40,584 bases of DNA from a virus. The DNA lies in the IMG/VR virus record IMGVR_UViG_3300033182_000270, positions 1 through 40,584 of that record; one strand, given 5' to 3'. Both the position numbers and the translations under genes were made by a program. Below are positions 20,822 through 40,428 of this stretch, one piece after another (the stretch's first letter is position 1; each line of letters begins with the position of its first letter). Under the pieces are notes generated by a model. The model saw nothing but the letters and a program-made list of their open reading frames with translations. It was not told where the DNA came from and did no database searches.

Positions 20822-20835
20822 AGAGTGAGATAACT

Positions 20836-22410: not shown

Positions 22411-22414
22411 AACG

Positions 22415-23350: not shown

Positions 23351-23354
23351 CCTA

Positions 23355-25207: not shown

Positions 25208-25717
25208 ATGAATTATACTGTCATTGATAATTTTCTTTCTAGAGAAGAATTCGTAACACTAAAATCGCATTTTTTTGATCAAAACTTATTATGGCAATAT
25301 CAGAACCAAACTAATTACGGAAAAATAGAATGTGACGACCGATTTAACTTTCAAATGATTCATATGTTCTACCAATCACCTGATATAGTAAGCGATCACC
25401 TTCCTATAGTTTACCCAATCTTAAAAAAATTAAATCTTGAAGTACTGTTACGAGTAAAAGCAAACTTAACAACCTGTTCAGATTCTATACAGACGTATGG
25501 GTATCACATTGATATACCTGAAAAAATATCAAAGATAGCTAAAACAGCAGTATTTTATATTAACACTAATGACGGATATACTGTATTTAAAGATTCGCAA
25601 GAACGTGTTGCAAGCATTGAAAACAGATTAGTTATATTTGATGCAGATATGCATCATAGTGGTACTAATTGCACTAACGAAAAAGTAAGAGCTGTAATAA
25701 ACTTTAATTATATTTAA
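25208..25717 (+). CDS. 2-oxoglutarate/Fe(II)-dependent oxygenase-like protein (169 aa)
   Basis: This compact double-stranded beta-helix oxygenase carries the classic ligand set: H100-x-D102 in GYHIDIP, a distal histidine at 149 or 150 (DADMHHSG) and R161 for the 2-oxoglutarate carboxylate (VRAVINFNY). The length is typical for small phage members of the prolyl-hydroxylase-like superfamily. It is on the plus strand, after the terminator, with no clear ribosome site and no strong promoter visible. It converges with the minus-strand operon. The substrate is unknown; hydroxylation of a protein or small molecule is assumed from the family only. Confidence 0.8.
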   Translation: MNYTVIDNFLSREEFVTLKSHFFDQNLLWQYQNQTNYGKIECDDRFNFQMIHMFYQSPDIVSDHLPIVYPILKKLNLEVLLRVKANLTTCSDSIQTYGYHIDIPEKISKIAKTAVFYINTNDGYTVFKDSQERVASIENRLVIFDADMHHSGTNCTNEKVRAVINFNYI

Positions 25718-25729
25718 AATACTGGAATA

Positions 25730-25749
25730 AATGCAGTAAATCCTGCATT
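25730..25749. terminator. Hairpin between convergent genes (possible weak terminator)
   Basis: Perfect arms AATGCAG and CTGCATT flank a six-base loop in the 30-base gap between convergent genes. It overlaps the stop codon of the 81-aa gene. It lacks a clear T-run, so termination efficiency is doubtful, but the position at the end of the long minus-strand operon is right. Confidence 0.4.
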
Positions 25750-25993
25750 AATATGGTCGATCGTCTCCAACATGCTGCCTAATAATAATATTAAGTTCTT
25801 TCCGTACTCTATAAAATGCTATACTAGAAGCAGATAACGAAAAGAAATTGTATCTCCAATACGACGTAGTAGTATTAGGGTCTTGCAAAAAAGTAGTCAG
25901 TGCCTGGTGCATTCCAAGACACTGACTTACAAAAAGGTCTTTATTTTTGTCTACTAAATCAATCTGATAAAGTTTATAGTCATTCTCAATCAT
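25748..25993 (-). CDS. Small protein coupled to halogenase 1 (81 aa, unknown)
   Basis: This is the last gene of the minus-strand operon. Its ATG overlaps the end of halogenase 1 by eight bases, so translation is probably coupled. The 81 residues include a single Cys (about 25), several aromatic residues (TTSYWRYNFFSLSASSIAFY about 42-61) and a basic stretch before the C-terminus (RVRKELNIIIRQHVG). There is no flavin-binding, metal-binding or membrane signature. It might be a small partner or substrate peptide of halogenase 1, but no homologue is recognised, and it could also be an unrelated small phage protein. Confidence 0.6.
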   Translation of the reverse strand: MIENDYKLYQIDLVDKNKDLFVSQCLGMHQALTTFLQDPNTTTSYWRYNFFSLSASSIAFYRVRKELNIIIRQHVGDDRPY

Positions 25994-27644
25994 TATTATT
26001 AAATGACGAAATATTAAATTCTCTATCTTCGTTATCGTAAACTTTATCTTTTAGATAAGAGTAGTGACTTGGAGCAGTCTCTGACAAACTCTCAATATAC
26101 TCTTTCTTTTGATTCCAGTAGTCTTGAGTTTGATCGTTAAAATACTCAGGAACTGAACCATTGCGTCCAAGTAATATACTACTAACCACTTTTAGTTGAG
26201 TTTGATTTACAGGACTAGTGTGCATACCGACAACAATGTCAGGCATGCCGCCCATAGAAAAATCTCCTGGTAAATGGTGACTATTTAAAAGCCTAACAGC
26301 CATTTCAGTAACTTGACTTCCGGCTCTTGATATCTTATTAACATCAGTCATGTCTGGATCCATAGTAATTTCTTCAGTTACATATCTCCAGTACGGTGTA
26401 TCTCTTCTAGAAGATAGTGTATAATGATAACCTACAAAATATTTAAATCCAGTCATTATTCCATTTACGATGTAGTTGAAATTATCCTTATGGATCTTAT
26501 TAACTGTTTCGTTTCGTAAAGTTTCGCTAAGGCGTAAAAGAATTTCTTGAACACTCAATAAACCAGTTGATTCTAAAGGTTCGATAAATCCATAACTTAA
26601 CCCTACACCGACTACATTTTTATTCCAGCATTTTTCATGAATGCCGTTTTTAATTTCAATATTTTTAAATGACCACGATTCAACTTGCTCTCTAGTCCTT
26701 GGTGCTTTTAGTTGTGTCATTAGATGATTTTTAAATTCTTCTAATGCATCTTCGTCAGAAACAAACTTATCTGAGTATACGTAACCGGTTCCAATTCTGT
26801 TATAGAGAGGAATATTCCATACCCACCCGTTGTCAATTGCAGTGCAGTTTGTAACATTTTCCATTTCTAATTCTTTATCTTCATAAGGAATTTGTACTGC
26901 CCATGCTTTATTGTTAGGTAATACGTCACTAAATGAATGGAACTTAACTCCCATAGTTTGTTCTAAAAGTAATGATCTAAATCCAGTGCAATCTAAATAT
27001 AAGTCAGCTTCTAACACATCGCCATTTCTTAGTTTTAAGCCATTAATCGAGCCGTCTTCATTTGTAAATATTTCGTCAATATGTTCAGGAACGTGAACTA
27101 CACCCCTCGGGATACAATATTGATCTTTTAGAAAGTTTCCAAACGCAATAGCATCCATGTGATACGCAACATCGTTTTTAAAACTAAATCCCGGTAATTG
27201 ACCATCTACATTGTCGTAAATCTTTCCTTTCTTAATAAAAGGCATAGTACTGTAGAAGCTTTCGTAAAAATCGCTAATTGGTGTTTCAGGGTTTTGTGCT
27301 TTCTTTATAAACCAATCCATAATTCCTTGTTGAGTGTTCTGTTCATCTTTAAGGCCAAATGGATAATAAAATTCTTCACCTTTTTGATAGAAATCAGTGA
27401 ATTTTATTGATTTTTTATATGTAGCATTACATGCTGGCATCCAATCCTTATCTTCTAAATCTAACATGGCTAGATATTGGTTGATAGTACCTAATGTAGA
27501 TTCACCAACTCCGATAACTGGAATATCTGGTGATTCAACTAACGCAATTTCAAGGTCTGAAAATTCGTTTGATAACATAGCGGCGCTCATCCAGCCTGCA
27601 CTGCCTCCGCCAACGATAATTATTTTTTTAATGCTGTTTGCCAT
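25986..27644 (-). CDS. FAD-dependent tryptophan-halogenase-like protein 1 (552 aa)
   Basis: The N-terminal Rossmann motif GGGSAGW (12-18) binds FAD, followed by GVGEST (45-50). K77 in CNATYK aligns with the catalytic lysine (K79) of PrnA-type halogenases. The halogenase-specific WxWxIP motif is W274-V-W-N-I-P279. E358-S359 in FIEPLESTG matches the PrnA Glu-Ser pair. The full length (552) matches the family. These enzymes turn FADH2, O2 and halide into hypohalous acid and halogenate an electron-rich ring. A free-standing marine viral halogenase (VirX1 of cyanophage Syn10) is known, so activity is plausible. AAAGGAAC precedes the ATG. No flavin reductase is in the window; the host may supply FADH2. 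The substrate is unknown. Confidence 0.9.
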   Translation of the reverse strand: MANSIKKIIIVGGGSAGWMSAAMLSNEFSDLEIALVESPDIPVIGVGESTLGTINQYLAMLDLEDKDWMPACNATYKKSIKFTDFYQKGEEFYYPFGLKDEQNTQQGIMDWFIKKAQNPETPISDFYESFYSTMPFIKKGKIYDNVDGQLPGFSFKNDVAYHMDAIAFGNFLKDQYCIPRGVVHVPEHIDEIFTNEDGSINGLKLRNGDVLEADLYLDCTGFRSLLLEQTMGVKFHSFSDVLPNNKAWAVQIPYEDKELEMENVTNCTAIDNGWVWNIPLYNRIGTGYVYSDKFVSDEDALEEFKNHLMTQLKAPRTREQVESWSFKNIEIKNGIHEKCWNKNVVGVGLSYGFIEPLESTGLLSVQEILLRLSETLRNETVNKIHKDNFNYIVNGIMTGFKYFVGYHYTLSSRRDTPYWRYVTEEITMDPDMTDVNKISRAGSQVTEMAVRLLNSHHLPGDFSMGGMPDIVVGMHTSPVNQTQLKVVSSILLGRNGSVPEYFNDQTQDYWNQKKEYIESLSETAPSHYSYLKDKVYDNEDREFNISSFNNND

Positions 27645-27670
27645 AGGTGTTCCTTTTAATAATCTGTAAA

Positions 27671-27677
27671 TATTTAA
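27671..27677 (-). promoter_or_regulatory. Possible internal late promoter before halogenase 1
   Basis: TTAAATA on the minus strand lies in the 29-base gap before halogenase 1, one of the few gaps in the operon, with about 20 bases of leader that includes the ribosome site. It departs from ATAAATA by one base and is a weak call. Confidence 0.25.
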
Positions 27678-28312
27678 TGTTCTACTGGCGTCGAAGCTAG
27701 TAGTTCTGAGTTAAGGTTATCTCTATATAAATTGAATGCTATAGAGATTCGTGTAGTGTCTGTTGGATTTAAATTTACTTTGTGCTCCATCCAACTCGGA
27801 AATAGCACAATCTTACCAACTGCTGGAGATGCAGAATAGTATTTTTGTGTATGCCCGCCAAACGGAAAAAGTTCTAAATGTGTAAACGGGTTTGGATTTT
27901 TAAACACAATATCCCCGTCTGCGCCTGACGTCTGATAGTAGTAGCAGCCTGAAATAGTCGAATCCTGATGTTGGTGCCAATCTTGACCTTCATTATGTGT
28001 AGTGAGATTAAACCAGCTATGAATAAGGACTACAGGTGCAGGCATCCATGCATTGATTCGCGATGTGTACTTGTCAACATGAGTCATTATATACTTTTCT
28101 AAATTCTTTAACTTATAATCCTTTATAGAATTATATCGCGCCTTAATATTAGTTTTAACCCCGTCATTCCACCCTTCAGGATTTTCAAAACTATCATTTG
28201 CATAGACAATGTCTAATACATCTTTAATTTCTTTCTGTACAAGAAATACTTCGTCAAACGATGGAGTGTGCTGATATATTGGCGTATCGAATAATGATAA
28301 TACTTCACTCAT
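27674..28312 (-). CDS. 2OG-Fe(II) oxygenase, TIGR02466-like (212 aa)
   Basis: The protein begins with the LFDTPIY segment usual for this family. It has SWFN near 99, then WHQHQDSTISGCYYY (H113, H115), KIVLFPSWMEHKV (H177) and RISIAFN (R188). These give the metal ligands and the 2-oxoglutarate arginine of a putative Fe(II) oxygenase of the TIGR02466 / PF13759 type. It starts by an ATGA overlap with the upstream gene and is followed by halogenase 1. Three relatives occur in the window (28956, 32420, 39808). The family is common in marine phages, and the substrate is not established. Confidence 0.85.
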   Translation of the reverse strand: MSEVLSLFDTPIYQHTPSFDEVFLVQKEIKDVLDIVYANDSFENPEGWNDGVKTNIKARYNSIKDYKLKNLEKYIMTHVDKYTSRINAWMPAPVVLIHSWFNLTTHNEGQDWHQHQDSTISGCYYYQTSGADGDIVFKNPNPFTHLELFPFGGHTQKYYSASPAVGKIVLFPSWMEHKVNLNPTDTTRISIAFNLYRDNLNSELLASTPVEH

Positions 28313-28959
28313 GAGTTATCTGCTACTAGTTCTAAATTTCCAGCAATTGATATTCTTGTTTTTTCCGTACTATAAAAAGGATGCACCATATGATGTAAAT
28401 CTGCCGGAAATAATAAAATATTACCCTCATATGTTTTGTCAGCTAATACAGATTCGCCTGTAATTCTACCTAATATATCTGTATACACAAATTCAAACAT
28501 TCCTGATCTATTAGTATAAGATTTATTACCAGGACTTATCTTTTGTTCAAAATTTAAAAAATATGGGATATCTACCCATACTACAAAACTATATACCCCG
28601 CCATGCCGATGTAAAGGATTAAACTCGTATCTTTCTTGGAAGTTAACCCAGAGACTTTCTAATCTGAATTTAAATTTTTTAGTTGTATTATTAGTGTACA
28701 GTGTATTAATATAATTGTATTTTTTGTTATGCTCAACTGCTAAACTTACTGCTTCTTGCTCAACAACGTCACAACATTTTGACAGTAAGTATTCTTTTCT
28801 AATATGTCCTGCTAAGTCAATATTATGCGGTACTGCTTTAGAATAGTCATTTTGTATTTCTACAACTTCGTCTTTAATCGCAGATAGCACATCGTTACTA
28901 ACTTTGCCGCGAATAACGCCAATGTTAACTAAGTCAACTGTTTCTACACCTGTAATCAT
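28309..28959 (-). CDS. 2OG-Fe(II) oxygenase-like, SFVVW type, copy 1 (216 aa)
   Basis: The core motifs are NPLHRHGGVYSFVVWVDIPY (H117, H119), NILLFPADLHHMVHP (H189/H190) and TRISIAGN (R202), i.e. a jelly-roll 2OG oxygenase layout. The first 100 residues are helical and carry KCC (61-63). It is clearly paralogous to the gene at 33647: HRHGGVYSFVVW versus HNHSGVYSFVVW, both followed by an (F/Y)T.S/ILG strand and a long loop. It is joined to both neighbours by ATGA overlaps. It is probably an Fe(II) oxygenase. No specific substrate is known. Confidence 0.8.
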   Translation of the reverse strand: MITGVETVDLVNIGVIRGKVSNDVLSAIKDEVVEIQNDYSKAVPHNIDLAGHIRKEYLLSKCCDVVEQEAVSLAVEHNKKYNYINTLYTNNTTKKFKFRLESLWVNFQERYEFNPLHRHGGVYSFVVWVDIPYFLNFEQKISPGNKSYTNRSGMFEFVYTDILGRITGESVLADKTYEGNILLFPADLHHMVHPFYSTEKTRISIAGNLELVADNS

Positions 28960-29597
28960 AATACCAACTTTGTTAAACCTTCTTCACTGCCTATATCACC
29001 CTTAAACCAAGTGTTAAACGCTAAACTAATTCTATCTTTATCATCCGTTGCTTGTATACGTTCAACACCGTGCTCAATGTTGCTATTAAAAATAACAAGA
29101 TCTCCGGGAACAACAGGCATGCCAATTCTACGCATATTCCACCAATTAGGTTTATTCATAATATGAATTTCATCGCGTCTGTCGCCGTAAAATGTAATAC
29201 TATCATTTTCAAAAGTATCAAAGTAGAAAGAACCACTAATAATACTATTAGAATGGAAATGCTTATGGTGCTGCTCACCAAGTCTATTATAATTAATCCA
29301 ACTTTGAGTAATATATAATTTAAAATCATTTTCCCAAGGTTCTATAATATTAGTAACATAATCTTGTATAGCGTTTGATATAAAGTTTCTAATATTAAAC
29401 AATGCAGGTGTCGATAATACATCTGTACTATGAGATCTCCTGTTATCGCTACCCGGGCGAACACGCCAAAAATCTGGTGATGCGGCTTTTAATTCAGCTT
29501 CAGTAAAAGGTCTTCCGATATTAATTTTATACACAGGGACCGGAAACAATCCGTTTACTGTTCCGCCTGATGAAAGTAACTTTACAAATTCTTGCAT
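28956..29597 (-). CDS. 2OG-Fe(II) oxygenase, TIGR02466-like (213 aa)
   Basis: Family landmarks are LFPVPVYKINI (18-28), TQSWINYNRLGEQHHKHFH (98-116), SIISGSFYF, GDLVIFNSNIEHGV (H176) and DRISLAFNTW (R189). The His cluster H110, H111, H113 and H115 is richer than usual for the first ligand pair. The distal part has a loop (HIMNKPNWWNM) that may shape the substrate pocket. The start is TAATG-coupled to the upstream paralogue-family gene at 29597. The substrate is unknown. Confidence 0.82.
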   Translation of the reverse strand: MQEFVKLLSSGGTVNGLFPVPVYKINIGRPFTEAELKAASPDFWRVRPGSDNRRSHSTDVLSTPALFNIRNFISNAIQDYVTNIIEPWENDFKLYITQSWINYNRLGEQHHKHFHSNSIISGSFYFDTFENDSITFYGDRRDEIHIMNKPNWWNMRRIGMPVVPGDLVIFNSNIEHGVERIQATDDKDRISLAFNTWFKGDIGSEEGLTKLVL

Positions 29598-30289
29598 TAC
29601 TTTTTCTCCTGATCCATTAATGCTTTCTTTCTTTTAAAGTAACTTCCACTAAATGTAAACACATAAGGGTCCATCTTCAAATATTCTTGATCAGTAATAA
29701 CATGCATTTTAAATTCTACATCTTTTTCGCTTAATGGAATTATTTGCGCCAATGGCTTTCCTGCTGGTATTGTAAATGATTTGGGAAATATATTATTTGG
29801 CACCATCATATTAGTACTTGTAGTATTTTGATATTTGTACTCAACAATGCCGTTAACAACAACAGGCTTAAAGTTCTCATCATGCCAAAAAGTGTTAGTG
29901 TATAAAAACTTAACTCCAGTTTTCTCTACAAATCGCCAAGGACTTACTATTTTTATATGTTGATGATTCTTAAAATGCCCGCCATGTTGTAAGGAATTAT
30001 GCGACTCGCATGCAGTCTTTGGTTCCCAAGATAGCTGTCCGTCAACGCTGATAAAAATATCGTGCCATGCCTGTAATATTAATCCAGTCCTATATAAATC
30101 ACCCACCCCTGGGCATAGTTTCATAGTACCACGTGTAGGACCAGCAAACTCAACAGTTGGCGGCAGCTTTTGCCAGAAGCTTGGAATAGCATCTTTAGCA
30201 TGTAATATAGGAAAAAGTTTAGGAAGCTCTTCGACAGAAGTGAAACAATCGATATGAATTTTTGATCTTTTGTTAAAAATTGAAAACAT
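29597..30289 (-). CDS. Unrecognised beta-rich paralogue D1 of a tandem set (230 aa)
   Basis: This is one of four tandem paralogues. Shared layout: LFPI..A....P.(F/W) near 25-39, KLCPGV.D....G near 57-69, then SPWRF.EKTG.KFLYTN.FW (116-135), NGI.EYKYQN.T, FPKSFTIPAGKPLAQIIPLS (168-187) and a basic SYFKRKKA end. The P.GY/EKTG block followed by an I.AG.PLAQI.P strand vaguely recalls DUF6065 proteins. No HxD pair is evident, so it is not an obvious 2OG oxygenase. It is closest to the next gene (D2). Joined by TAATG on both sides. The function is unknown; a jelly-roll/cupin-like fold is a guess. Confidence 0.7.
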   Translation of the reverse strand: MFSIFNKRSKIHIDCFTSVEELPKLFPILHAKDAIPSFWQKLPPTVEFAGPTRGTMKLCPGVGDLYRTGLILQAWHDIFISVDGQLSWEPKTACESHNSLQHGGHFKNHQHIKIVSPWRFVEKTGVKFLYTNTFWHDENFKPVVVNGIVEYKYQNTTSTNMMVPNNIFPKSFTIPAGKPLAQIIPLSEKDVEFKMHVITDQEYLKMDPYVFTFSGSYFKRKKALMDQEKK

Positions 30290-31011
30290 TACTTGTCCTT
30301 CTTATGATACGGGCATTTACTTTCTAATATTTTTTTACGCTTGTAATATTGACCTGCTTGTGAAAACATATACGACAAGTTATCATCATCCCACTCTTCT
30401 TTAGAAACTTCATGCATATGAACTTTTATCTTTTTATTCTCTAACGATACTATTTGAGCCAATGGTGTACCTGCATTAATAGTAAGATTTTTTGGAAATC
30501 CGTTCTTTGGTATCCACAAATTAATATTAGTTGAATTTTGATACTTGTATTCAGTTATTCCATTTGGAGTAAAGTATTTTAGTGTAGGAACATTCCAAAA
30601 CGGGTTGGTAAACATAAACTTAGAACCAGTTTTCTCTCGAAATTTCCAAGGACTACCAATTTTTAAATGATGATATTCTTTAAATGTTTGAGAACTATTC
30701 CATTGCCAGTCTGGATGAGATTGGCCCATTTCATCAGGCTCCCAATAAAGATTAGGTTTAGACCAATCAATATATAAATCACACCAGTTAGGTATTATTA
30801 TACCTTCTTTAAATATTTCAACTACACCAGGGCAAGTCCTAATAGTTGCAACAGTAGACCCTGACGGTGACTTAGTTGTTCCAGGAACTGCTTTAAACCA
30901 ACTTGGAGTAAATTTTTCTGCATCTTCAATAGGAAATAAATCTGTAATTCCCTTAAAGAAACTAAATGCATCTATGTGAACAACTGGTTTTTTAAAGAAA
31001 AACGTAAACAT
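30289..31011 (-). CDS. Unrecognised beta-rich paralogue D2 of a tandem set (240 aa)
   Basis: Nearest relative of D1: VHIDAFSFFKGITDLFPIED versus IHIDCFTSVEELPKLFPILH, then GSPWKFREKTGSKFMFTNPF, NGITEYKYQNSTNINLWIPK, INAGTPLAQIVSLENKKIKV and QYYKRKKILE. The conserved Lys/Arg in the EKTG block and the C-terminal KRKK suggest a shared surface. No signal peptide, membrane helix or recognised catalytic triad is present. Its stop shares the A of the D1 start (TAATG), which points to coupled synthesis. The four proteins may form a complex or act on related substrates. Confidence 0.7.
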   Translation of the reverse strand: MFTFFFKKPVVHIDAFSFFKGITDLFPIEDAEKFTPSWFKAVPGTTKSPSGSTVATIRTCPGVVEIFKEGIIIPNWCDLYIDWSKPNLYWEPDEMGQSHPDWQWNSSQTFKEYHHLKIGSPWKFREKTGSKFMFTNPFWNVPTLKYFTPNGITEYKYQNSTNINLWIPKNGFPKNLTINAGTPLAQIVSLENKKIKVHMHEVSKEEWDDDNLSYMFSQAGQYYKRKKILESKCPYHKKDK

Positions 31012-31018
31012 AATCTAT

Positions 31019-32418: not shown

Positions 32419-32419
32419 A

Positions 32420-33049
32420 CTATCTTTCAAACGTCACATTAAATGCAACATTAACCCTTTCTTTATCTAACGGATTTGGCTCAACCCTGTGCATCAGATA
32501 CGATGGAAAAATTAAAACATCGCCGTCGTCTGGATAATACTTTGATACTCCGTTATACACCCAGGCTGGGTGATATAATTTATACGTATGATTAAATGGT
32601 TCAAACTCTATAGAACCAGTGCCTGATGCCTGCAAGTAGATCACTCCGCTAATAAAACTACCAAAATGGGTGTGATTGGTATTAAACCCGTGCTTGCTAT
32701 TTACGTTAGTCCACGTATTAATTATTGGATTATTGGCAAATGACATAAAATTATTTTCAGGATCTCCGTACAAGTTTGTTGGTAATATTAGATTGTTTAT
32801 ATATAGATTATAACACTCTAATATAGTTTCGTCAACAAATTTGATATTATCTAATGAAAAATTTGTCGAATCTAATTTCCCCCGCCAACAGTGCTGTTCG
32901 CTTCCGGAAGAATCATTTGTAACTTTACGATCGTTTAAAACTTCTGCTAATAGTTGTGTTCTAACAGATTCAGGTATTGCATTTTTAATATGCAATATTG
33001 GTGACATTTCTAAAACATTAGAGCTAACTTTCCAATTAAACGTATTCAT
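32420..33049 (-). CDS. 2OG-Fe(II) oxygenase, TIGR02466-like (209 aa)
   Basis: The ATG at 33049 starts MNTFNWKVSS one base after the upstream stop; an earlier TTG would force a 47-base overlap. Motifs are NTWTNVNSKHGFNTNHTHFG (H126, H128), SFISGVIYL, GDVLIFPSYLMHRV (H187) and KERVNVAFN (R198). The N-terminal ILHIKNAIP segment resembles the D-family LFPI.HAK..IP segment, a curious local likeness. It separates the four D paralogues from the second halogenase block. The substrate is unknown. Confidence 0.82.
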   Translation of the reverse strand: MNTFNWKVSSNVLEMSPILHIKNAIPESVRTQLLAEVLNDRKVTNDSSGSEQHCWRGKLDSTNFSLDNIKFVDETILECYNLYINNLILPTNLYGDPENNFMSFANNPIINTWTNVNSKHGFNTNHTHFGSFISGVIYLQASGTGSIEFEPFNHTYKLYHPAWVYNGVSKYYPDDGDVLIFPSYLMHRVEPNPLDKERVNVAFNVTFER

Positions 33050-33050
33050 A

Positions 33051-33647
33051 TCATCTATGTCTTTGAAATTGTTTTGATAATGTTGTGTGCCATTCAAATG
33101 TTATTCCTACAGTTATCCTCCAATCTGTTTTGGGTGCTAGTGCTTGATGTGCAAAACATGCAGGGAACAACACTATTTTTCCTCTTTTAAATTTTGACCT
33201 AAATACTTCTGTTAAATCATTAATTGAGTTAAAAAATAAAGTGTCCCCGCTACTATCGTTAGCATAGTAAACTATAGTCCATAGAGAAGGGTCAGTATTG
33301 GTGTCAATGTGTGCTGCTGGTGTCTGTGTTTCAGTCTGGCCGTTAACAGCAATACGTTGAACTTCGATAAATTTTCCGTCCGGGTCAACTGTAGGAAGAA
33401 TCTCAACCTGCAAACAGTCTAGTAGATTTTGAATTATTGTTGGAACTCCTAAACTTACATTCTCTTCACGTAAGTATAGCATCTTACCAAAATAAGGACA
33501 ACCGTCGTCGATAGTTGCAGCATGGTGACCGTACTCGAAAGTAAAAGTTTTAAATGCGACTTCGCCTGAACGTACAGCCCATTCAGGTATATTGTTATCA
33601 AACTCGTAAATTAAGTTAGTGTTGGTTTTAATATTAGAAAACATCAT
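33051..33647 (-). CDS. Prolyl-4-hydroxylase-type 2OG-Fe(II) oxygenase (198 aa)
   Basis: The ligand set is textbook: AAHIDTN (H113-x-D115), LFPACFAHQAL (H167) and DWRITVGITF (R177). The RIAVNGQTETQTPAAHID strand before the HxD resembles small marine-phage P4H-like enzymes. The first 80 residues include a Cys (50) and a (Y/F)EYGHH segment. The stop is 1 base before the next start; its own ATG shares the A of the upstream TAA (TAATG). The family hydroxylates prolyl or other residues or small molecules; which applies here cannot be told. Confidence 0.85.
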   Translation of the reverse strand: MMFSNIKTNTNLIYEFDNNIPEWAVRSGEVAFKTFTFEYGHHAATIDDGCPYFGKMLYLREENVSLGVPTIIQNLLDCLQVEILPTVDPDGKFIEVQRIAVNGQTETQTPAAHIDTNTDPSLWTIVYYANDSSGDTLFFNSINDLTEVFRSKFKRGKIVLFPACFAHQALAPKTDWRITVGITFEWHTTLSKQFQRHR

Positions 33648-34306
33648 TATACTTTTACCCTAAAGTTACCAGCAATTGAGATTCTATACTCATTTGAACT
33701 ATAGTAAGGATAGACTTGATGATGCAAATCCGATGGAAATAGACATATTTTCCCTTCCCAACTTTTATCTACTGGTAAATCAAGTGTACTCATTTTTCCT
33801 AAAGAATCAGTATAGATAAATTGAAAATATCCAGCTCGATATTTTATTGTTGTCGGATTTGGGCACATTCTTTCTTCTTCAAGTAAACTAAATGGAATAT
33901 CAGCCCACACTACAAAGCTATATACACCGGAGTGATTATGTATAGGTAAAAAATCTCCCGGTTTTTGTAAATTAACCCACATTCTTTCTAATTCAAATTC
34001 TATAGTATCTTCCGTTTTAACCATGTAATTAAACATTTTATTAAAGTAACTGTACTTTGCTTCGTGGATATCGATTAGTTTGCGAGCTTCCTTTTCAATA
34101 GTATCTCTCAAGTCATTAGGGAGATCAAAGTCGTAATTATAACCTTCTAATCTTTGATGGAACTGATGTAATACATCATGACTTTTACTTTCATATTGAA
34201 CTACATCCAACTTCACATCGTTACAAAAATTTTTTAATCTAGCTTTAATAAAAGGATTTAAATCTTCTATTAGAATCCCAACGCTAGACAGATCGTTAGC
34301 CTGCAT
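33647..34306 (-). CDS. 2OG-Fe(II) oxygenase-like, SFVVW type, copy 2 (219 aa)
   Basis: This is the second member of the SFVVW pair (see 28309). It has FLPIHNHSGVYSFVVWADIP (H123, H125), KICLFPSDLHHQVYPYYSSN (H195/H196) and YRISIAGNF (R208). The N-terminal half is helical (about 18-95). It lies directly after halogenase 2 (one-base gap), whereas copy 1 lies two genes upstream of halogenase 1. The paired occurrence suggests each halogenase block carries its own member. The substrate is unknown. Confidence 0.8.
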   Translation of the reverse strand: MQANDLSSVGILIEDLNPFIKARLKNFCNDVKLDVVQYESKSHDVLHQFHQRLEGYNYDFDLPNDLRDTIEKEARKLIDIHEAKYSYFNKMFNYMVKTEDTIEFELERMWVNLQKPGDFLPIHNHSGVYSFVVWADIPFSLLEEERMCPNPTTIKYRAGYFQFIYTDSLGKMSTLDLPVDKSWEGKICLFPSDLHHQVYPYYSSNEYRISIAGNFRVKV

Positions 34307-34307
34307 G

Positions 34308-35819
34308 TTATTTCCTTAAAAACTCAATAAATTTATCGTAATTTAATTTATTTTTCATTGACGATAGTGATTCTTCTTTATACTCATTTAATACTGATTG
34401 CGAAAATTCTCGATAACCTTCGTCGTTGATTGAGTCTAATGACGAAGACAACACACTAGTAGAAAGATTACCTGTTCCAAATAATATGTAACTGTATAAT
34501 CCCCAATCGACACCACCTGTATATAAATCAAAATCTTTATTAGATGGCATTTTACATTTTGCCATTTCTAGCAAATCTTTAGTCTTTTCAGTTTGAGTTG
34601 CACCGGTATGTATATACTCCCAAAACTTGCTATCTGTACGGCCGCCCATATAATGTACGTTTAAAAAGTCTTTAAAATCGTCGTACATCTTTGAGGTTCT
34701 TTTATTATAAAAGTTAATTGAACCATTATTGCATGTTGACTGCTGATCGTCTTTCAAATACTCAAAAACAAAAGTTAGTAACTGTATTATTGTGCTGTGT
34801 ATTGATGTAGCTTCTAATGGTTCGGCAAATGCCGATGCTAACCCTATAGCAAGACAGTTCTTAACCCATGCTTTGTCTAATCTTCCAGTTTCAAATTTTA
34901 ATACTCTAATAGGGTCTATACTGTGCCCAAGAGTTTTTTCAATTTCGTCTTGTGCTTGTTCTGGAGTTATAAAATCGTCGCAAAAAACATAGCCGCAGCC
35001 TTTTCGTTCTAATGTAGGAATTTGCCACATCCAACCTGAACTTTGTGCCCATGCAGTAGTCCACGGCTCGGGCGTTTCGTTATCGTTATAAGGTATTAAA
35101 AACGGCATTGCAGAGTTAACAGGTAAATGCTCTTGATAACTTACCCATGAATTACCAAGTGCAATCATTAGTACTTTTGAGAATCCACTAGCATCGATAA
35201 AAAAATCACCTTTAAGATCTTTTCCTGATTTAAGTTTAAGGCTTTTAATAAATCCTGTCTCGTTATCTAAATTAACTGTAGTAACTTCATCGTCGACCCA
35301 GCTAGTGTTATTGTGCTTCAATACAACTTTTTTAAAATATCTACCTACATCGAATGCATCGAAGTGTAAGGCAAACCCTATATTCTCAAAAGAAAAGTCA
35401 TTTATTGAAAATGGAGATTTATTGCTTTCAGCATACGCTCCGGTTCTATGCAATAAATGCATATTGTTAGGATTAATTTCCGACTGAGTACAGAACGTAA
35501 AGTCAATAATTGATGTGCTAGTAGGACTTCCAGCAAGCGGCGCAAAATAACTTTCACCAACAGTTTTCCAATCCTTATGATGAATTCCATATTTAATAGT
35601 TGCGTTAGATTCTTTCATAAACTCTAACATATCGCAACCAAAGTCAAACAAATCGCCTCTAATGATATTTGTTAAAACGCCTGTACTTCCTTCACCTGCA
35701 CCAACTATACTAATCTTACTAGATTCTATAACCGTAACAGTGTTCTTAGGAGCAGCTTTTGAAATCATTAATGCTGCTAACCAGCCAGCAGTTCCTCCAC
35801 CTACAATTACGATATTCAA
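34308..35819 (-). CDS. FAD-dependent tryptophan-halogenase-like protein 2 (503 aa)
   Basis: The FAD motif GGGTAGW (7-13) and VGAGEGST (39-46) are followed by K76 in SNATIK (PrnA K79 position), W263-M-W-Q-I-P268 (WxWxIP) and FAEPLEATS (E336), so the key halogenase residues are present; the Ser after the Glu in PrnA is Ala here. It starts at TTG (35819): the in-frame codons upstream are GGC-rich up to a TAA at 35832-35834, a GGAGA ribosome site is well placed, and TTGA overlaps the upstream stop. It is about 50 residues shorter than halogenase 1 and quite diverged from it. The substrate and halide are unknown. Confidence 0.88.
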   Translation of the reverse strand: MNIVIVGGGTAGWLAALMISKAAPKNTVTVIESSKISIVGAGEGSTGVLTNIIRGDLFDFGCDMLEFMKESNATIKYGIHHKDWKTVGESYFAPLAGSPTSTSIIDFTFCTQSEINPNNMHLLHRTGAYAESNKSPFSINDFSFENIGFALHFDAFDVGRYFKKVVLKHNNTSWVDDEVTTVNLDNETGFIKSLKLKSGKDLKGDFFIDASGFSKVLMIALGNSWVSYQEHLPVNSAMPFLIPYNDNETPEPWTTAWAQSSGWMWQIPTLERKGCGYVFCDDFITPEQAQDEIEKTLGHSIDPIRVLKFETGRLDKAWVKNCLAIGLASAFAEPLEATSIHSTIIQLLTFVFEYLKDDQQSTCNNGSINFYNKRTSKMYDDFKDFLNVHYMGGRTDSKFWEYIHTGATQTEKTKDLLEMAKCKMPSNKDFDLYTGGVDWGLYSYILFGTGNLSTSVLSSSLDSINDEGYREFSQSVLNEYKEESLSSMKNKLNYDKFIEFLRK

Positions 35820-36460
35820 TTGCCGTCTCCGTTATCAACACGCATCATTATGTTTAACGCATTAGTGATCCTCAGTGTACCATTAGTATGTTTTGGTACA
35901 TAATGATCTAACCAACTTGGGAACAACACAATGTCGCCTTCTTTAGCATCAGGTAACCGATCAAAGTCATAAAAATATGAAGGAATATAATCTATATTTT
36001 TAGTTGGAATTGATGCCTTAATGTACTTCCAAAGCGGATTCTTAAATGCTGTTGGATACGAGTTTTCAGCTAATTTAACATAATGTACAGCAGCAAATTG
36101 TATAGTCGACGGCCCTCCAGTGTGATCATGGAGAAACTCTGCTTCATTATTATACGAAAGGTTATACCAACCTTTCATCTTAATATCCCATTGGTGTTTG
36201 TTTAGATCAAACCCCATGCCTGTTATTAAGGCACGAACATCATCTTCGTATAATTTATATAGGTACGGCCAATGACAGAATGCTGCTCCGGCATGCATTC
36301 CATAGTCCGTAAAAGTATTTTGAACAGGGTCATTTGGTCCATTTTTTTCAAAATACGGAAAGACATGCTCCATAATATAATCCTGGATCTTATCATGATG
36401 TGTTGCTCTAGTTTTTATTACATCGATTCCAAATAACGGAACTTGTTCAACTTCTTTCAT
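35816..36460 (-). CDS. 2OG-Fe(II) oxygenase-like, HDH type, copy 1 (214 aa)
   Basis: The ATG at 36460 (MKEVEQVPLFGID) has GAGAGTGG upstream; a TTG at 36475 is less likely. Motifs are KGWYNLSYNNEAEFLHDHTG (H111, D112, H113), VHYVKL, GDIVLFPSWLDHYVPKH (H186) and LRITNALN (R197). Together with the next gene it forms a paralogous pair sharing the VPL(F/Y) start, WYN(L/Y), (A/L)HDH and FPS(W/Y)...H. It is linked by TTGA overlap to halogenase 2, so this oxygenase is made just before the halogenase. The substrate is unknown. Confidence 0.8.
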   Translation of the reverse strand: MKEVEQVPLFGIDVIKTRATHHDKIQDYIMEHVFPYFEKNGPNDPVQNTFTDYGMHAGAAFCHWPYLYKLYEDDVRALITGMGFDLNKHQWDIKMKGWYNLSYNNEAEFLHDHTGGPSTIQFAAVHYVKLAENSYPTAFKNPLWKYIKASIPTKNIDYIPSYFYDFDRLPDAKEGDIVLFPSWLDHYVPKHTNGTLRITNALNIMMRVDNGDGN

Positions 36461-37082
36461 ATATGCCACTCTCAAAAATACTTAAATTTATTGCAACTGT
36501 TAATCTTTCTTCGTCGCTATCTTGCGTTATAACAGAATGCGGTACATATGAAGGGAAAAATATCATATCTCCTTCATTTACATCTACTATGTGTTGCAAT
36601 TTCTGATAATCATTAGGTCTTAAATGATCTTTAGTCGTTGGTTGTGTACTTTTTAATACGCCTTCGAGGGGGTTATAAAATACTGTACCTTTATGAACAT
36701 CTTTATTAAACTTTACAAAATGTATAGCGGCGTAATTAACAGGTAACGGCCCGTTTAAATGATCATGTGCTTCTTGATATGCACCACGTTTACCGTAGTT
36801 ATACCAATACTTTTTACGCACTTCCCATTGTTGATGTGTGTTAAATCCAGCCTTTATTAAAAACTCATCAAAATTTGTTTTGTAAAATTGATCAAACAAC
36901 GTTTTATCTAATTTAGGAGCACCCGGAAAGTAACTACTAAAGATACTTCTTTCGGTATCGTTGTTTCCAGTTTGTTCGTACACTGGATGAATGTAATTTT
37001 CAAACCATGCAGATATTTCACTGTGTTTGTGTGCAGTAGTTTTATATAAAGGAACTTCAAATAATGATGTTTTAAAAATCAT
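36447..37082 (-). CDS. 2OG-Fe(II) oxygenase-like, HDH type, copy 2 (211 aa)
   Basis: Paralogue of the gene at 35816: FEVPLYKTTAHKH start, KKYWYNYGKRGAYQEAHDH (H106, D107, H108), IHFVKFNKD, GDMIFFPSYVPHSVI (H182) and ERLTVAIN (R193). It has a loop (NPLEGVLKSTQPTTKDHLRP) of the same length class as its partner. It is joined by ATGA to the upstream DUF6445-like gene. A tandem duplication within the operon explains the pair; the two have diverged enough to have different targets. Confidence 0.8.
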   Translation of the reverse strand: MIFKTSLFEVPLYKTTAHKHSEISAWFENYIHPVYEQTGNNDTERSIFSSYFPGAPKLDKTLFDQFYKTNFDEFLIKAGFNTHQQWEVRKKYWYNYGKRGAYQEAHDHLNGPLPVNYAAIHFVKFNKDVHKGTVFYNPLEGVLKSTQPTTKDHLRPNDYQKLQHIVDVNEGDMIFFPSYVPHSVITQDSDEERLTVAINLSIFESGIYERS

Positions 37083-37759
37083 TCGTCTTCCCAGGTGTAA
37101 TTAAGATTAACTTTTGTGCAGTGCTCTTGTTTTATATCTTTAATAAAAAATACAACACTTTTTCTCGGTTCACCACAATCTAAATTGTACTTGTTTGGTC
37201 TATGATAAATCTCACCGTCATAAGATATAAGTCTGTTAAACATGTTACCAACTTTTAATGTTTCTGTAAATGTATTATGGTTTTGACGTAAATCTTTGAG
37301 ATACTCATCAGTAGATATTCCTGTGAGATTAAATTCTTGTCTAGAAACAAAATCGTCAGTTTTAAACTGTTCTTTAGTTTTCTTTTCAAATAAAGAAGTT
37401 CCTGTTTCTAACGACTGTTCATTGGGGGTTAGATATATAACTCCCGCTATGTCAATACTATCAGAATGAATCCAACCTTCGTTTACTTCGGTGTTATCAT
37501 ATACTGTGTTAATATGGAATCTTATATCCATAATAAATCCGTAAATACCTGGATATACTTCTGTAGAAACTTTTTGCGCTAAAAACAGTGCAAAATTTTT
37601 TGTCTCGTTATCAGTAGACATTAAAAGATTATCAGTTCGAAGTCCTGGGTATGTCTGATGTTGTTTAAATTCTTGACGATCAAATAGCTTGAGAACTTTA
37701 TAAGGATTTTTAAAGAAGTTATTCTTCGCTATAATAAAATCAGAATATGCATGTGCCAT
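37079..37759 (-). CDS. 2OG-oxygenase-like protein, DUF6445-like (226 aa)
   Basis: The pattern is GWIHSDSIDIAGVIYLTP (H98-x-D100), ETGTSLFEKK (119-127), NRLISYDGEIYHRPN (H186) and PRKSVVFFIKDI (R199). The H-x-D ... H ... R order fits a 2OG-Fe(II) oxygenase. The IAGVIYLTP followed by GTSLF and a YDG...H block recalls proteins grouped as DUF6445. A long charged loop (about 126-165) separates the two metal-ligand halves. The one-base gap toward the next pair and ATGA junction on the other side place it firmly in the operon. The substrate is unknown. Confidence 0.72.
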   Translation of the reverse strand: MAHAYSDFIIAKNNFFKNPYKVLKLFDRQEFKQHQTYPGLRTDNLLMSTDNETKNFALFLAQKVSTEVYPGIYGFIMDIRFHINTVYDNTEVNEGWIHSDSIDIAGVIYLTPNEQSLETGTSLFEKKTKEQFKTDDFVSRQEFNLTGISTDEYLKDLRQNHNTFTETLKVGNMFNRLISYDGEIYHRPNKYNLDCGEPRKSVVFFIKDIKQEHCTKVNLNYTWEDE

Positions 37760-37760
37760 G

Positions 37761-38339
37761 TTAATATGCCCACGTTACAAAACTATAACGACTTCCTTTA
37801 GTAACAGTGCTTACGCTATGAGGATACAGAAATGTTGAAGGGAAAATAATTATATCTCCTTTCTTTAAATCTGGGTCGAAATCAGTGCCAAATGTAAATT
37901 TGCCACCATCAAAATCGTTGTTTAGAAGACCAACAATAGATAATAACGGAACACCTTGATCACCCTCGCCAAACAATCCTTTAACATGATCATGATGAGT
38001 TTCAATTTTTGAACCTTCGTTGCATCTATTAAATCTTATTGGTGAGCATGACTGCACACCGGAGAAAGAAATATACTTGTCAAAACTCATCGTTTCTGCA
38101 AGCATTTTATTATAGTTTGAAACAGTGTTAATTAAGAATTGTTGCAATACTATTGCTTCATGTTCAAATGAATACTTAATTTCAAATAAGTTATCTTTAT
38201 CTAACGCATAGTTTCCATCCTTAGCATATTCGTGCGGAATCCATTCTGCTTTATTTTTAGAAATCATTGTAACTAACGTATCGCAAGTATCTAACGGAAT
38301 TGCTGCTTCTTTATAGATAAAATCTTCTAAATTTCTCAT
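37761..38339 (-). CDS. Prolyl-hydroxylase-type 2OG-Fe(II) oxygenase, paired copy 1 (192 aa)
   Basis: Start at 38339: this ATG forms TAATG with the upstream stop and matches the paralogue's N-terminus (MRNLEDFIYKEAAIP versus KQLKDYIFVKNIIP); ATG at 38345 and TTG at 38351 are alternatives. Ligands are H115-x-D117 in THHDH, H174 in LYPHSV and R184 in GSRYSFVTW. SPIRFNRCNEG precedes the HxD, and GLLNNDFDGGKFTF is the classic P4H (L/N)N..F.GG.. strand. This is a typical small phage P4H-like enzyme. The substrate is unknown. Confidence 0.87.
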   Translation of the reverse strand: MRNLEDFIYKEAAIPLDTCDTLVTMISKNKAEWIPHEYAKDGNYALDKDNLFEIKYSFEHEAIVLQQFLINTVSNYNKMLAETMSFDKYISFSGVQSCSPIRFNRCNEGSKIETHHDHVKGLFGEGDQGVPLLSIVGLLNNDFDGGKFTFGTDFDPDLKKGDIIIFPSTFLYPHSVSTVTKGSRYSFVTWAY

Positions 38340-38929
38340 TACCATGCCCAACTTACAAATGTATAACGTGTACCTTTTGTTACAGGATCAACTCTGTGAG
38401 GGTACATAAAAACTGACGGAAACACTAATATGTCCCCTTCCTTTAACTCGATTTTGTAGTCTTCGAAGAATACAAACTCTCCACCTTCGTAGTCATCATT
38501 TAAATGCCCTAATAGTGTTAAAATTGGTATACCTTTTCGTTCACCGTCAAATAAACTATGTATGTGATCGTGATGTGCATGCATTATGGTATGAACCCCG
38601 TAACGATTAAACCTAACAGGACATGCCATATGAATACCGCAGTTGCCAACATAATCACCGTATGTGTTTTCCTTATTGATAAAATCTTCGTATTCTTTTA
38701 AAACTTCACCAACATAAGGATACAGTAAGTCGTTCTGGTTTGGAAAAGACTCTGCGACTTCAAGTTCTTTTAAAGGATACTTAATTTTTCTAGAATGCAT
38801 TTCTCCATAATTTTGCCATTGATGCTGCTCCCAGTGATTTTTTATTTGTACTTCGTTAACTAACTGTTTACAAACATTGCTAGGAATTATATTTTTTACA
38901 AATATGTAATCTTTTAATTGCTTTAACAT
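38339..38929 (-). CDS. Prolyl-hydroxylase-type 2OG-Fe(II) oxygenase, paired copy 2 (196 aa)
   Basis: Closest paralogue of the next gene: CPVRFNRYGVHTIMHAHHDH (H119-x-D121), LGHLNDDYEGGEFVFFEDY, GDILVFPSVFMYPHRV (H178) and GTRYTFVSWAW (R188). All four P4H-type residues are intact in both copies, so the duplication has been kept functional. It begins exactly where the JmjC-like gene ends (zero gap). The pair sits early in the operon, after GroES and the cupin-like gene. Confidence 0.87.
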   Translation of the reverse strand: MLKQLKDYIFVKNIIPSNVCKQLVNEVQIKNHWEQHQWQNYGEMHSRKIKYPLKELEVAESFPNQNDLLYPYVGEVLKEYEDFINKENTYGDYVGNCGIHMACPVRFNRYGVHTIMHAHHDHIHSLFDGERKGIPILTLLGHLNDDYEGGEFVFFEDYKIELKEGDILVFPSVFMYPHRVDPVTKGTRYTFVSWAW

Positions 38930-39424
38930 TTAATAATAATCCAATCCAAACGAAACTCCAACTCGCGGAGTTAATGGAATAACTTCGTGGTACATAGACT
39001 TTGGTACATACACAAAATCATTTGGTTTTAACTCGTATATTGACGTGTCGTTTCCATCTTCTATAGTCCATCTAGTTGAACCTTGTATTTGCCAATATAA
39101 TACGTCCGAATCGTCGTTATGTCTCCCAAACGAATCTGCTATTTCTAAAAATGAAATATAACAGTGTGCAGTTGCGGGAAGTGTATCTAATTTTTTATAT
39201 TCTTCAAGCAGGTCACCAACATACCGGATATTATGACCAGTAAAAAGTCCGTAGCCCATATTGTTAAAGAATTTTAATTTTTCTCCAGATACAACAATAC
39301 GATTGAACTCCTTTAGGATCTCGTCCCAGGTTGGTCGTTCAATCGTAACATTACGAAAAACAAAGTGATGTTTCGATTCCCTTGATTCTAAAAAACTTAA
39401 ATCTTTAAGAAAATCGTAACTCAT
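38930..39424 (-). CDS. JmjC/cupin-like putative oxygenase (164 aa)
   Basis: I choose the ATG at 39424 (MSYDFLKDL), which overlaps the GroES stop as TAATG; the longer TTG frame adds only an Arg-rich tail that overlaps GroES. H102-x-D104 (RHNDDSDVLYWQIQGSTRW), then LKPNDFVYVPKSMYHEVIPL (H146) form the cupin metal motif seen in JmjC-type Fe(II)/2OG hydroxylases. WQIQGSTRW is the usual strand after the HxD in that group. At 164 residues it is a minimal domain without the dimerisation region of ribosomal-protein hydroxylases. A protein-hydroxylase role is possible but not shown. Confidence 0.75.
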   Translation of the reverse strand: MSYDFLKDLSFLESRESKHHFVFRNVTIERPTWDEILKEFNRIVVSGEKLKFFNNMGYGLFTGHNIRYVGDLLEEYKKLDTLPATAHCYISFLEIADSFGRHNDDSDVLYWQIQGSTRWTIEDGNDTSIYELKPNDFVYVPKSMYHEVIPLTPRVGVSFGLDYY

Positions 39425-39729
39425 TACTGATCGTCTTCTTCTTCGATAACAGCCCAAACATCGCCTTCAGGCATATTGTAGTAACTCTCTCCACTAACTT
39501 GTAGTTCGGTTCCTGCGCAAGGATGAAACAGTACACGAGTGCCAACAGTTAAGGTAGTTGGGATAAAGACACCAGTTTTAGTAGCATGTTTACCTGGGCC
39601 AACTGCAAGAACTGTTCCTTTAGTTGCAGCTTCTTGGGCTTGGTCTGGTATAACAATACCTCCTGAAGTTTCTTTAAGAGGGTCATCTTTTTTAACAATT
39701 ATACGATCAAATACAGGTTTTAACAGCAT
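39424..39729 (-). CDS. groES: Co-chaperonin GroES (Cpn10)
   Basis: The 101 residues contain LLKPVFDRIIVKK (2-14), the mobile loop with GGIVIPD (23-29, the IVI contact for GroEL), GTVLAVGPG (38-46), GTRVLFHPCAG (63-73) and the DVWAVIEEE end. This matches full-length bacterial GroES rather than the divergent T4 gp31, which has the same job of serving host GroEL in phage protein folding. It is the first gene of the minus-strand operon, with a perfect AGGAGGT ribosome site (39735-39741) and a late-type promoter box. The likely role is folding of phage proteins, perhaps including giant fibres or oxygenases; which client it serves is inference. Confidence 0.95.
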   Translation of the reverse strand: MLLKPVFDRIIVKKDDPLKETSGGIVIPDQAQEAATKGTVLAVGPGKHATKTGVFIPTTLTVGTRVLFHPCAGTELQVSGESYYNMPEGDVWAVIEEEDDQ

Positions 39730-39752
39730 ATATTACCTCCTTTTATGCGAGG

Positions 39753-39759
39753 TATTTAT
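39753..39759 (-). promoter_or_regulatory. Candidate T4-type late promoter of the GroES/oxygenase operon
   Basis: ATAAATA on the minus strand (within CATAAATACC) lies 23 bases upstream of the GroES ATG, with the AGGAGGT site between. The gap (39730-39807) is the only sizeable one ahead of the whole operon, so this box is the best candidate for its main promoter and implies late expression. Confidence 0.55.
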
Positions 39760-39807
39760 GAATTCGTATTTGTAATTTTAGGTATTCTTGAGTACTAAAT
39801 ATTCTGC

Positions 39808-40428
39808 ATGGAACATCTACTATTTCCAACCCGAATTGATACTTTTGACTTGTCAGATCATCCCGATCTTATAACAGCATGTAACATTGTTAGGCGCCAA
39901 GAGAGACAAACTAGTCCGCATGTGTTAGTTAGTAATGCTGCGAGTTCTTATCCAACTAATATGCCATCGATATTAAATCACATAGCGTTGTATCGATTAA
40001 AACAAACAATTCAGTCGCACATCTCAAAAATAGCAAATGAACTACAACTAGCACCTGTTGAAATAACTAATAGTTGGTTTAATGTTATGAATAAAGGTCA
40101 TTCAGTAAAACCACATAGACATGAACGCAGCATTATATCGGGTGCATTATACATCGAAGCAGAGTCTAATTCGGTAGGATTAAAATTTCATAGTCCGTTA
40201 GCGCAATGTAGAATGGCTGAATTTTTATTTGGCAGTAATCATCTTAACGAAAATTATCATGAAGTTGAATGTAAAGTTGGGCAGTTAATACTATTCCCTG
40301 GATGGTTAGAGCATTCAACTGACGAGAATCGTAGCGATAGGCGAGTCGTAATTAGTTTTAATTCTGAACACGGACCGTTAGGTAAAGTACAAGAAGCCCA
40401 TGCTAAATGGGTCAATAATCAATATTAA
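39808..40428 (+). CDS. 2OG-Fe(II) oxygenase, TIGR02466-like (206 aa)
   Basis: The family start LLFPTRIDTF is followed by TNSWFNVMNKGHSVKPHRHE (H103, H105), SIISGALYI, GQLILFPGWLEHSTD (H169) and RRVVISFN (R178/R179). All putative Fe and 2OG residues are present. It is on the plus strand, divergent from GroES, with no convincing ribosome site; a CTAAATA box just six bases before the ATG is too close to be a confident promoter. It converges with the partial gene at the right edge (four-base overlap). The substrate is unknown. Confidence 0.82.
   Translation: MEHLLFPTRIDTFDLSDHPDLITACNIVRRQERQTSPHVLVSNAASSYPTNMPSILNHIALYRLKQTIQSHISKIANELQLAPVEITNSWFNVMNKGHSVKPHRHERSIISGALYIEAESNSVGLKFHSPLAQCRMAEFLFGSNHLNENYHEVECKVGQLILFPGWLEHSTDENRSDRRVVISFNSEHGPLGKVQEAHAKWVNNQY

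Follow-up and report, generated by a model that had tools for sequence, protein, structure and literature searches.

Halogenase and oxygenase genes form a packed block beside tail-tip genes

We analyzed a block of halogenase and oxygenase genes in the IMG/VR virus record IMGVR_UViG_3300033182_000270, a 40,584-base stretch of DNA (the window) that we annotated with Pfam, PHROGs, and NCBIfam. The record belongs to a water-borne T4-like phage in which a 19-gene halogenase/oxygenase block adjoins tail-tip genes. The block (25,208-40,428) is mostly a single tightly packed minus-strand unit: its frames run from 39,729 down to 25,748, and most neighbors overlap by 1, 4, or a few more bases, with one plus-strand gene of the 2-oxoglutarate (2OG) oxygenase type at either flank. 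These two genes, starting at 25208 and 39808, lie outside the operon on the opposite strand and make up 2 of the 13 2OG-type genes. All of the genes listed in a first-pass annotation are present with correct coordinates and intact frames. The features considered here are as follows (coordinates, strand, assignment, and evidence).

500..8656, plus: giant tail-fiber-like protein with carbohydrate-binding CBM_5_12 repeats (PF02839, 9.8e-36); the fiber adjoins the block in relatives
8715..20483, plus: second giant fiber protein, 3922 residues, with CBM_5_12 repeats (PF02839, 4.3e-39)
20501..21447, plus: two small fiber-associated proteins, 106 and 203 residues (homologues in loci L006-L008 and L012 and in freshwater T4-like loci)
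21463..24314, plus: three tandem C1q-domain tail-tip proteins, 315, 311, and 319 residues, proposed substrates (PF00386; composition)
25208..25717, plus: 2OG-type oxygenase (HxD..H..R), weak profile at 24 bits (PF13640, 7.7e-5, below cut-off; motif)
25748..25993, minus: truncated 2OG-type remnant, 81 residues (33-39% identity to the N-terminal 75-77 residues of homologues)
25986..27644, minus: predicted flavin halogenase 1, VirX1 type (PF04820, 3e-110; VirX1 6qgm, 3e-121; 43.0% identity to VirX1)
27674..28312, minus: 2OG-FeII_Oxy_5 with HxH (PF13759, 2e-20; TIGR02466, 1e-19; PDB 3bvc, 2rg4)
28309..28959, minus: 2OG-FeII_Oxy_5 with HxH (PF13759, 4.5e-9)
28956..29597, minus: 2OG-FeII_Oxy_5 with HxH (PF13759, 3.2e-14)
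29597-30289, 30289-31011, 31019-31726, and 31723-32430, minus: four phrog_7084 paralogues (PHROG matches)
32420..33097, minus: 2OG-FeII_Oxy_5 with HxH (PF13759, 7.2e-18)
33051..33647, minus: 2OG-type oxygenase (HxD..H..R), weak profile at 14.9 bits (phrog_81 2OG, 1.6e-4; motif)
33647..34306, minus: 2OG-FeII_Oxy_5 with HxH (PF13759, 7.6e-10)
34308..35819, minus: predicted flavin halogenase 2, from an ancient clade of its own (PF04820, 7.4e-92; tree; 30.9% identity to halogenase 1)
35816..36475, minus: 2OG-FeII_Oxy_5 with HxH (PF13759, 2.4e-9)
36447..37082, minus: 2OG-FeII_Oxy_5 with HxH (PF13759, 1.8e-12)
37079..37759, minus: DUF6445, predicted 2OG protein-hydroxylase-like fold (PF20043, 1.6e-8; motif; model; Foldseek)
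37761..38351, minus: 2OG-FeII_Oxy_3 (PF13640, 1e-10)
38339..38929, minus: 2OG-FeII_Oxy_3, PKHD/YbiX-like (PF13640, 2e-13; NF003974, 1.3e-11)
38930..39457, minus: JmjC_2/cupin-like oxygenase (PF08007, 1.3e-8)
39424..39729, minus: GroES co-chaperonin, first operon gene (phrog_3188, 2e-18; present in 8 of 12 clade records)
39808..40428, plus: 2OG-FeII_Oxy_5 with HxH, divergent from the operon (PF13759, 2.6e-21; TIGR02466, 2.3e-24)

Oxygenase genes are roughly ten-fold denser here (about 13 per 15.2 kb) than in cyanophage genomes (6-21 per 150-250 kb). For every block gene, nonsynonymous divergence (dN) from relatives was 0.2-0.55, while synonymous divergence (dS) was at least about 1.5 or had reached saturation, indicating that all of them are kept by selection.

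The block is conserved in other phages

Relatives of halogenase 1 are encoded in 80 phage records, mostly of cyanophages; no near DNA match to the block was found in phage records. In Syn9, S-RIM44, S-CREM1, S-WAM1, P-RSM6, P-TIM40, and Sf-CH11, the halogenase gene or genes lie between or beside fiber/tip and oxygenase genes. The recurring order is fiber, tip adhesins, halogenase(s), a dUTPase-like protein (phrog_7084), and a run of 2OG and JmjC genes. This order is kept in three groups (Kyanoviridae, freshwater T4-like phages, and the window's clade), on either strand relative to the fiber genes. Members of the window's clade in IMG/VR (68-73% identity) have the same gene order, and T4-like contigs of the freshwater type (a label inferred from sample numbers), up to 278 kb long, carry a fiber, three tips, a protein of ~165 residues, a halogenase, and phrog_7084, followed by a protein of ~80 residues, oxygenases, JmjC_2, and DUF6445. 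The T4 capsid gene Gp23 was present in 8 of 16 relatives' records and psbA in 1 of 16, many of these records being fragments.

The first-pass annotation had treated the viral halogenase VirX1 as free-standing and the block as special to this phage. Neither holds. In sequence, the solved VirX1 chain matches the second Syn9 halogenase at 100% identity, and in Syn10 the corresponding gene lies between another halogenase gene and a phrog_7084 gene, just past gp38-like tip genes; VirX1 thus sits inside such a block, which is carried by Syn9, Syn10, S-CREM1, S-RIM44, P-RSM6, and P-TIM40. The genes are not dispersed in relatives, and their order is conserved in many phages, in agreement with the earlier suggestion of a single co-inherited multi-enzyme unit. 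The block is genuine and conserved, deposited cyanophages already carry it, and the window holds an enlarged variant. The new part is its linkage to receptor-binding tips.

We compared the number of 2OG genes within 10 kb of a halogenase gene with the whole-genome expectation. There was an excess in Syn9 (7/10, P = 5e-5), S-CREM1 (P = 0.003), P-RSM6 (P = 0.003), P-TIM40 (P = 0.01), and S-WAM1 (P = 0.03); it was marginal in S-RIM44 (P = 0.1) and absent in Sf-CH11 (P = 0.4). No such excess surrounded the unlinked halogenase genes of S-B64, P-SSM2, and S-MbCM6. These tests are not independent, as the phages are related.

Most of the cyanophage blocks and those related to them contain two small conserved proteins, one of ~73-83 residues after phrog_7084 and one of ~165 residues before the halogenase. 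They have no Pfam match (17299-17520 and 12914-13408 in locus L005, and equivalents). In the window, the position of the 106- and 203-residue proteins ahead of the tip genes is likewise conserved.

Halogenase genes track one type of tip adhesin

A phrog_7084 gene comes directly after a halogenase gene in 79 of 80 cyanophage-type loci. The Syn9-type glycine-rich adhesin occurs in 20 of 50,697 phage records, all from halogenase phages. When we scanned IMG/VR with the tip adhesin alone, every assessable locus (78 of 78) had a halogenase gene, at a median distance of 2.1 kb. A control scan with the glycine-rich adhesin of S-SM1, a phage without a halogenase, found a halogenase gene in 4 of 50 loci and a 2OG gene in 41 of 50. 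The S-B64 adhesin retrieved a single relative, identical to the query. A long adhesin gene array that contains no 2OG gene surrounds the halogenase and phrog_7084 genes in loci L090 and L093.

We then compared the composition of 27 non-redundant glycine-rich tips encoded within 6 kb of a halogenase gene with that of 52 control tips without one. His (3.9 versus 0.46%) and Trp (1.30 versus 0.16%) were about 8-fold higher in the halogenase-linked tips and Tyr was also higher (4.5 versus 2.9%), whereas Asn, Gln, Asp, Lys, and Ser were unchanged. A lysine-free or Asn-rich signature of halogenase-linked tips was ruled out on the same data, as Lys and Asn match the control tips. In S-B64, about 86 kb separate the halogenase gene from that of the adhesin, which is nonetheless His-rich (5.0%).

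Of the three tips in the window, the first has a clear C1q match (PF00386, 1.1e-6) and the second and third have marginal ones. These three tips are the proteins of the window richest in Trp, Tyr, His, and Asn, which make up 29-36% of their C-terminal 140 residues; this region has no lysine.

The two halogenases belong to separate clades

Both flavoproteins are predicted flavin-dependent halogenases by profile and motifs. They pass the PF04820 cut-off of 21 bits with 369.6 (halogenase 1) and 309 bits (halogenase 2), and each has all four motifs: the FAD motif GGGxAGW, the catalytic lysine in NATxK, WxWxIP, and the catalytic Glu in EPLE[SA]T. The catalytic residues are thus intact, as the first-pass annotation had claimed. 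Halogenase 1 has VirX1 as its best PDB match (3e-121, versus 2e-80 for the next) and groups with Syn9/VirX1-type sequences in the tree. Halogenase 2 is not of the VirX1 type: it is closest to tryptophan 6-halogenases (Thal-like), matches VirX1 at only 1e-38, and falls in a separate supported clade. The two clades are well supported in a tree of 89 representatives, built by a quick method and with some long branches, and on this basis a single recent duplication was rejected as the source of both genes.

VirX1 forms a trimer whose active site is large and open; it accepts a broad range of aromatic substrates, with a halide preference of I>Br>Cl (PMC8407142). Its type groups with MibH/BrvH-type halogenases and not with free-tryptophan enzymes (PMC8269204). 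For this much-studied iodinating enzyme, no native substrate is named in the review consulted. Halogenase genes in the S-PM2, S-ShM2, S-SSM5, and P-TIM40 records look split or broken (internal stop codon, family fragments), hinting at repeated halogenase loss outside the tip-linked block.

The phrog_7084 paralogues have a predicted dUTPase-like fold

All four paralogues reported by the first-pass annotation match phrog_7084. Six of 17 family members show a remote relationship to DUF6065, at best 2e-4; distant relatives were reached with narrow alignments, a broad alignment of the four paralogues having no conserved stretches. The AlphaFold2 model, with a predicted local distance difference test (pLDDT) score of 80.7, points to a dUTPase-like fold: the top 50 Foldseek matches are all dUTPases or dCTP deaminases (probability 0.97-1.0, best E 4.6e-4), with modest E-values and low template modeling scores by query length. 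Neither Pfam nor NCBIfam gave a dUTPase profile match, and because it lacks sequence-profile membership we describe the family as dUTPase-like by fold and do not file it as dUTPase.

A bacterial parent cluster for phrog_7084 was considered but is not supported. Six matches lie in bacterial contigs, and the three examined sit among phage or prophage genes. These three (L028, L030, and L033), from metagenome-assembled or single-cell contigs assigned to Devosia, Alphaproteobacteria, and Sphingobacteriales, have phrog_7084 among phage/prophage tail genes; in L030 and L033 it is flanked by oxygenase genes.

Most of the oxygenases carry an HxH metal motif

The 13 2OG-type genes comprise 10 over the Pfam cut-off (27674, 28309, 28956, 32420, 33647, 35816, 36447, 37761, 38339, and 39808), DUF6445 by fold, and two by motif. 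Profile or fold places them in the superfamily, weakly so for the last two; the ligand pattern claimed for all of them in the first-pass annotation does not hold throughout, as the eight of PF13759 type show HxH and not HxD/E at the first metal motif. Among 332 distinct PF13759-type proteins from these phages, HxH is found in 327, the distal His in 331, and the Arg in 323, and the solved structures 3bvc and 2rg4 have HxH in sequence too. A three-His metal site in these enzymes is possible, and they may use 2OG.

In DUF6445, H98xD100..H186..R199 is invariant in 24 homologues. Its model (pLDDT 93) has a predicted 2OG fold, with PHD2, OGFOD1, and prolyl-4-hydroxylase (P4H) as Foldseek neighbors, and both DUF6445 and JmjC_2 resemble protein hydroxylases of this kind (PHD2, OGFOD1, P4H). 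The JmjC/cupin-like gene of the first-pass annotation is the JmjC_2 gene at 38930, and its co-chaperonin is the GroES gene at 39424. GroES scores 83 bits in NCBIfam, under the curated cut-offs of those models, and is assigned through phrog_3188; Pfam Cpn10 matches were found in 8 of 12 relatives. GroES was ruled out as a core part of the cassette, since it accompanies the block only in the window's clade among the loci examined.

The 81-residue frame at 25748-25993 was overlooked in the first-pass annotation. Only the N-terminal ~77 residues of intact homologues of 175-192 residues are matched, which marks the frame as a remnant and indicates that one oxygenase has been lost in this phage. In public phage records (PHROG/RefSeq names), block 2OG-type proteins are labeled minor coat protein, DNA endonuclease V, or ferrochelatase; these labels are apparently name transfer errors.

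Expression signals and other features

The T4 late promoter TATAAATA occurs 0 times in the window versus 7.0 expected in shuffles, and near the divergent start there are only weak CATAAATAC/CTAAATA sites, so promoters lend no support to late expression. CTAAATA is depleted in the window (6 versus 14), with two of the six sites just upstream of the gene starts at 24339 and 39808; this type of motif may be avoided outside promoters. The window contains no tRNAs or Rfam RNAs, and no flavin reductase was seen among its annotated genes.

DISCUSSION

Judging from sequence and genomic context, we think it on balance probable that the block works as a cassette for maturing the tail tips by which this phage binds its receptor. 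A more specific proposal, which we advance tentatively and hold at somewhat less than an even chance, is that these phages use the dedicated cassette to put halogens (I, Br, or Cl on His, Tyr, or Trp) plus hydroxyls on their receptor-binding tips, and that this is the natural job of VirX1. The substrates would be the C1q-domain tip proteins in the window and the glycine-rich gp38-like adhesins in cyanophages. After tip synthesis, the flavin halogenases would place halogens on exposed His, Tyr, and Trp residues of the trimeric tips, with the dUTPase-like proteins as their putative partners, and the 2OG, DUF6445, and JmjC_2 oxygenases would hydroxylate other side chains of the same proteins. GroES, in the window's clade, may aid folding of tips or capsid. 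The outcome would be altered receptor binding or stability of the tip.

Several observations favor a role in tip maturation: the open active site of VirX1 and its location in a block, the presence of two halogenase clades, the likeness of DUF6445 and JmjC_2 to protein hydroxylases, the conserved gene order, the 79 of 80 halogenase-phrog_7084 pairs, the adhesin linkage (78 of 78 versus 4 of 50, and all 20 phage records with the Syn9-type adhesin), the adhesin arrays of L090 and L093, the His, Trp, and Tyr enrichment of halogenase-linked tips, the Trp/Tyr/His/Asn-rich C1q tips of the window, and the lack of psbA in 15 of 16 relatives' records, many of them partial. Among the targets suggested in the first-pass annotation, phage surface proteins fit best, narrowed here to tail-tip adhesins; nothing was found that points toward glycans or a metabolite pathway.

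Other observations weigh against this role. The halogenase genes of S-B64, P-SSM2, and S-MbCM6 are far from tip genes, and five control-family loci with a halogenase encode ordinary low-His tips. The one control C1q tip (DC33, n = 1) is likewise rich in Trp and Tyr, but lower in His. Phe, Arg, Glu, and Met are also up and Pro is down in the halogenase-linked glycine-rich tips, which means that family history accounts for part of the composition signal, and the 27 non-redundant tips are not independent. Linkage alone does not prove function, because neighboring genes travel together. In other phages (loci L041-L047 and L055-L059), phrog_7084 genes have no halogenase with them and neighbor genes for ATP-dependent DNA ligase or DnaB helicase; the family therefore has another context and is not exclusively tip-linked. 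Finally, it is from gene content, motifs, folds, packing, linkage, and tip composition that we infer the chemistry, namely the enzyme activity, the tips as substrate, the residues altered, and the tuning of tip stability or receptor binding.

We weighed four other explanations. Tail-fiber regions are variable, and accessory genes with unrelated substrates might gather beside fiber genes, sharing only an address and late expression; the many 2OG genes elsewhere in cyanophage genomes, and those near adhesins without a halogenase (41 of 50 control loci), fit such a cargo hot-spot. We consider it unlikely, since distant phages share the same families in a common order whatever the orientation, the dUTPase-like gene follows the halogenase gene in 79 of 80 loci, and the halogenase follows one adhesin type (78 of 78 versus 4 of 50). 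Phage genes that change surfaces are common, and the block might instead alter the host envelope or its surface (O-antigen, capsule, S-layer) during infection, which could, for instance, prevent superinfection or release progeny from debris. The CBM_5_12 repeats in the giant fibers make the surface a contact point, but our Pfam and PHROGs annotation found no glycosyltransferase or transporter in the block, DUF6445 resembles protein hydroxylases, and the enzymes track adhesin type; we regard this explanation as quite unlikely.

Both halogenases and 2OG enzymes are characteristic members of natural-product gene clusters. Phage prnA and 2OG genes have been treated as auxiliary metabolic genes (PMC3037559, PMC2984593, PMC9964418, PMC9602691, PMC9146016), with suggested roles in host antibiotic protection, DNA repair, and 2OG/NtcA effects. 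Synthesis of a halogenated, hydroxylated small molecule during infection, as in the host antibiotic protection proposed for phage prnA (PMC2984593, PMC9964418), appears very unlikely for the block: the same annotation found no scaffold-building enzyme, carrier protein, or exporter in it, its tail-tip neighbors are constant, and the VirX1 type stands apart from free-tryptophan enzymes (PMC8269204). A role of the oxygenases in DNA repair, or in lowering 2-oxoglutarate to steer host nitrogen control (NtcA), has been published for cyanophage 2OG genes (PMC3037559, PMC9146016). We give it hardly any weight here, as the block is present in T4-like records without psbA, has no repair-gene neighbors in the window, and includes halogenases and a tip linkage that such a role leaves unexplained.

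Among known systems, the VirX1 locus of cyanophage Syn10 (PDB 6QGM) is similar in content, with a VirX1-type and a second halogenase, phrog_7084, a 2OG/DUF6445/JmjC_2 run, and tip genes; VirX1 and halogenase 1 share 43% identity and the same motifs. In the window, by contrast, the second halogenase belongs to another clade, phrog_7084 is present in four copies, the tips are C1q-domain and not glycine-rich proteins, the block is on the opposite strand, and there is a GroES gene. MibH, LodB, GoxB, and QhpG act on protein or peptide residues. They belong to the same flavoprotein superfamily, MibH in the halogenase group of VirX1, but the window has no precursor or partner oxidase, and the weak NCBIfam matches of its flavoproteins to LodB, GoxB, and QhpG are far below the family cut-offs. 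Multiple 2OG genes in cyanophages (24 in S-SCSM1, 10 in S-CREM1) are also of the PF13759 and PF13640 families in high copy; papers see separate auxiliary metabolic genes there, whereas the window has one operon with halogenases. Pelagiphage 2OG/ferrochelatase clusters likewise bring several non-orthologous 2OG genes close together, but these are not adjacent, have ferrochelatase as a partner, and include no halogenase (PMC9599517). In the full text covered, from which most subscription journals are absent, no proposal of tail-tip modification was found for halogenases with tail fibers or for 2OG enzymes with tail fibers and hydroxylation, although an earlier one may exist.

A conserved, tip-linked cassette gives VirX1 a concrete candidate natural substrate, including in cultured phages. 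If tip maturation is indeed its function, both sequence and post-translational chemistry would shape receptor binding by phages, with consequences for host-range prediction and for recombinant phage tips, and unexplained cyanophage 2OG genes would gain a non-metabolic job.

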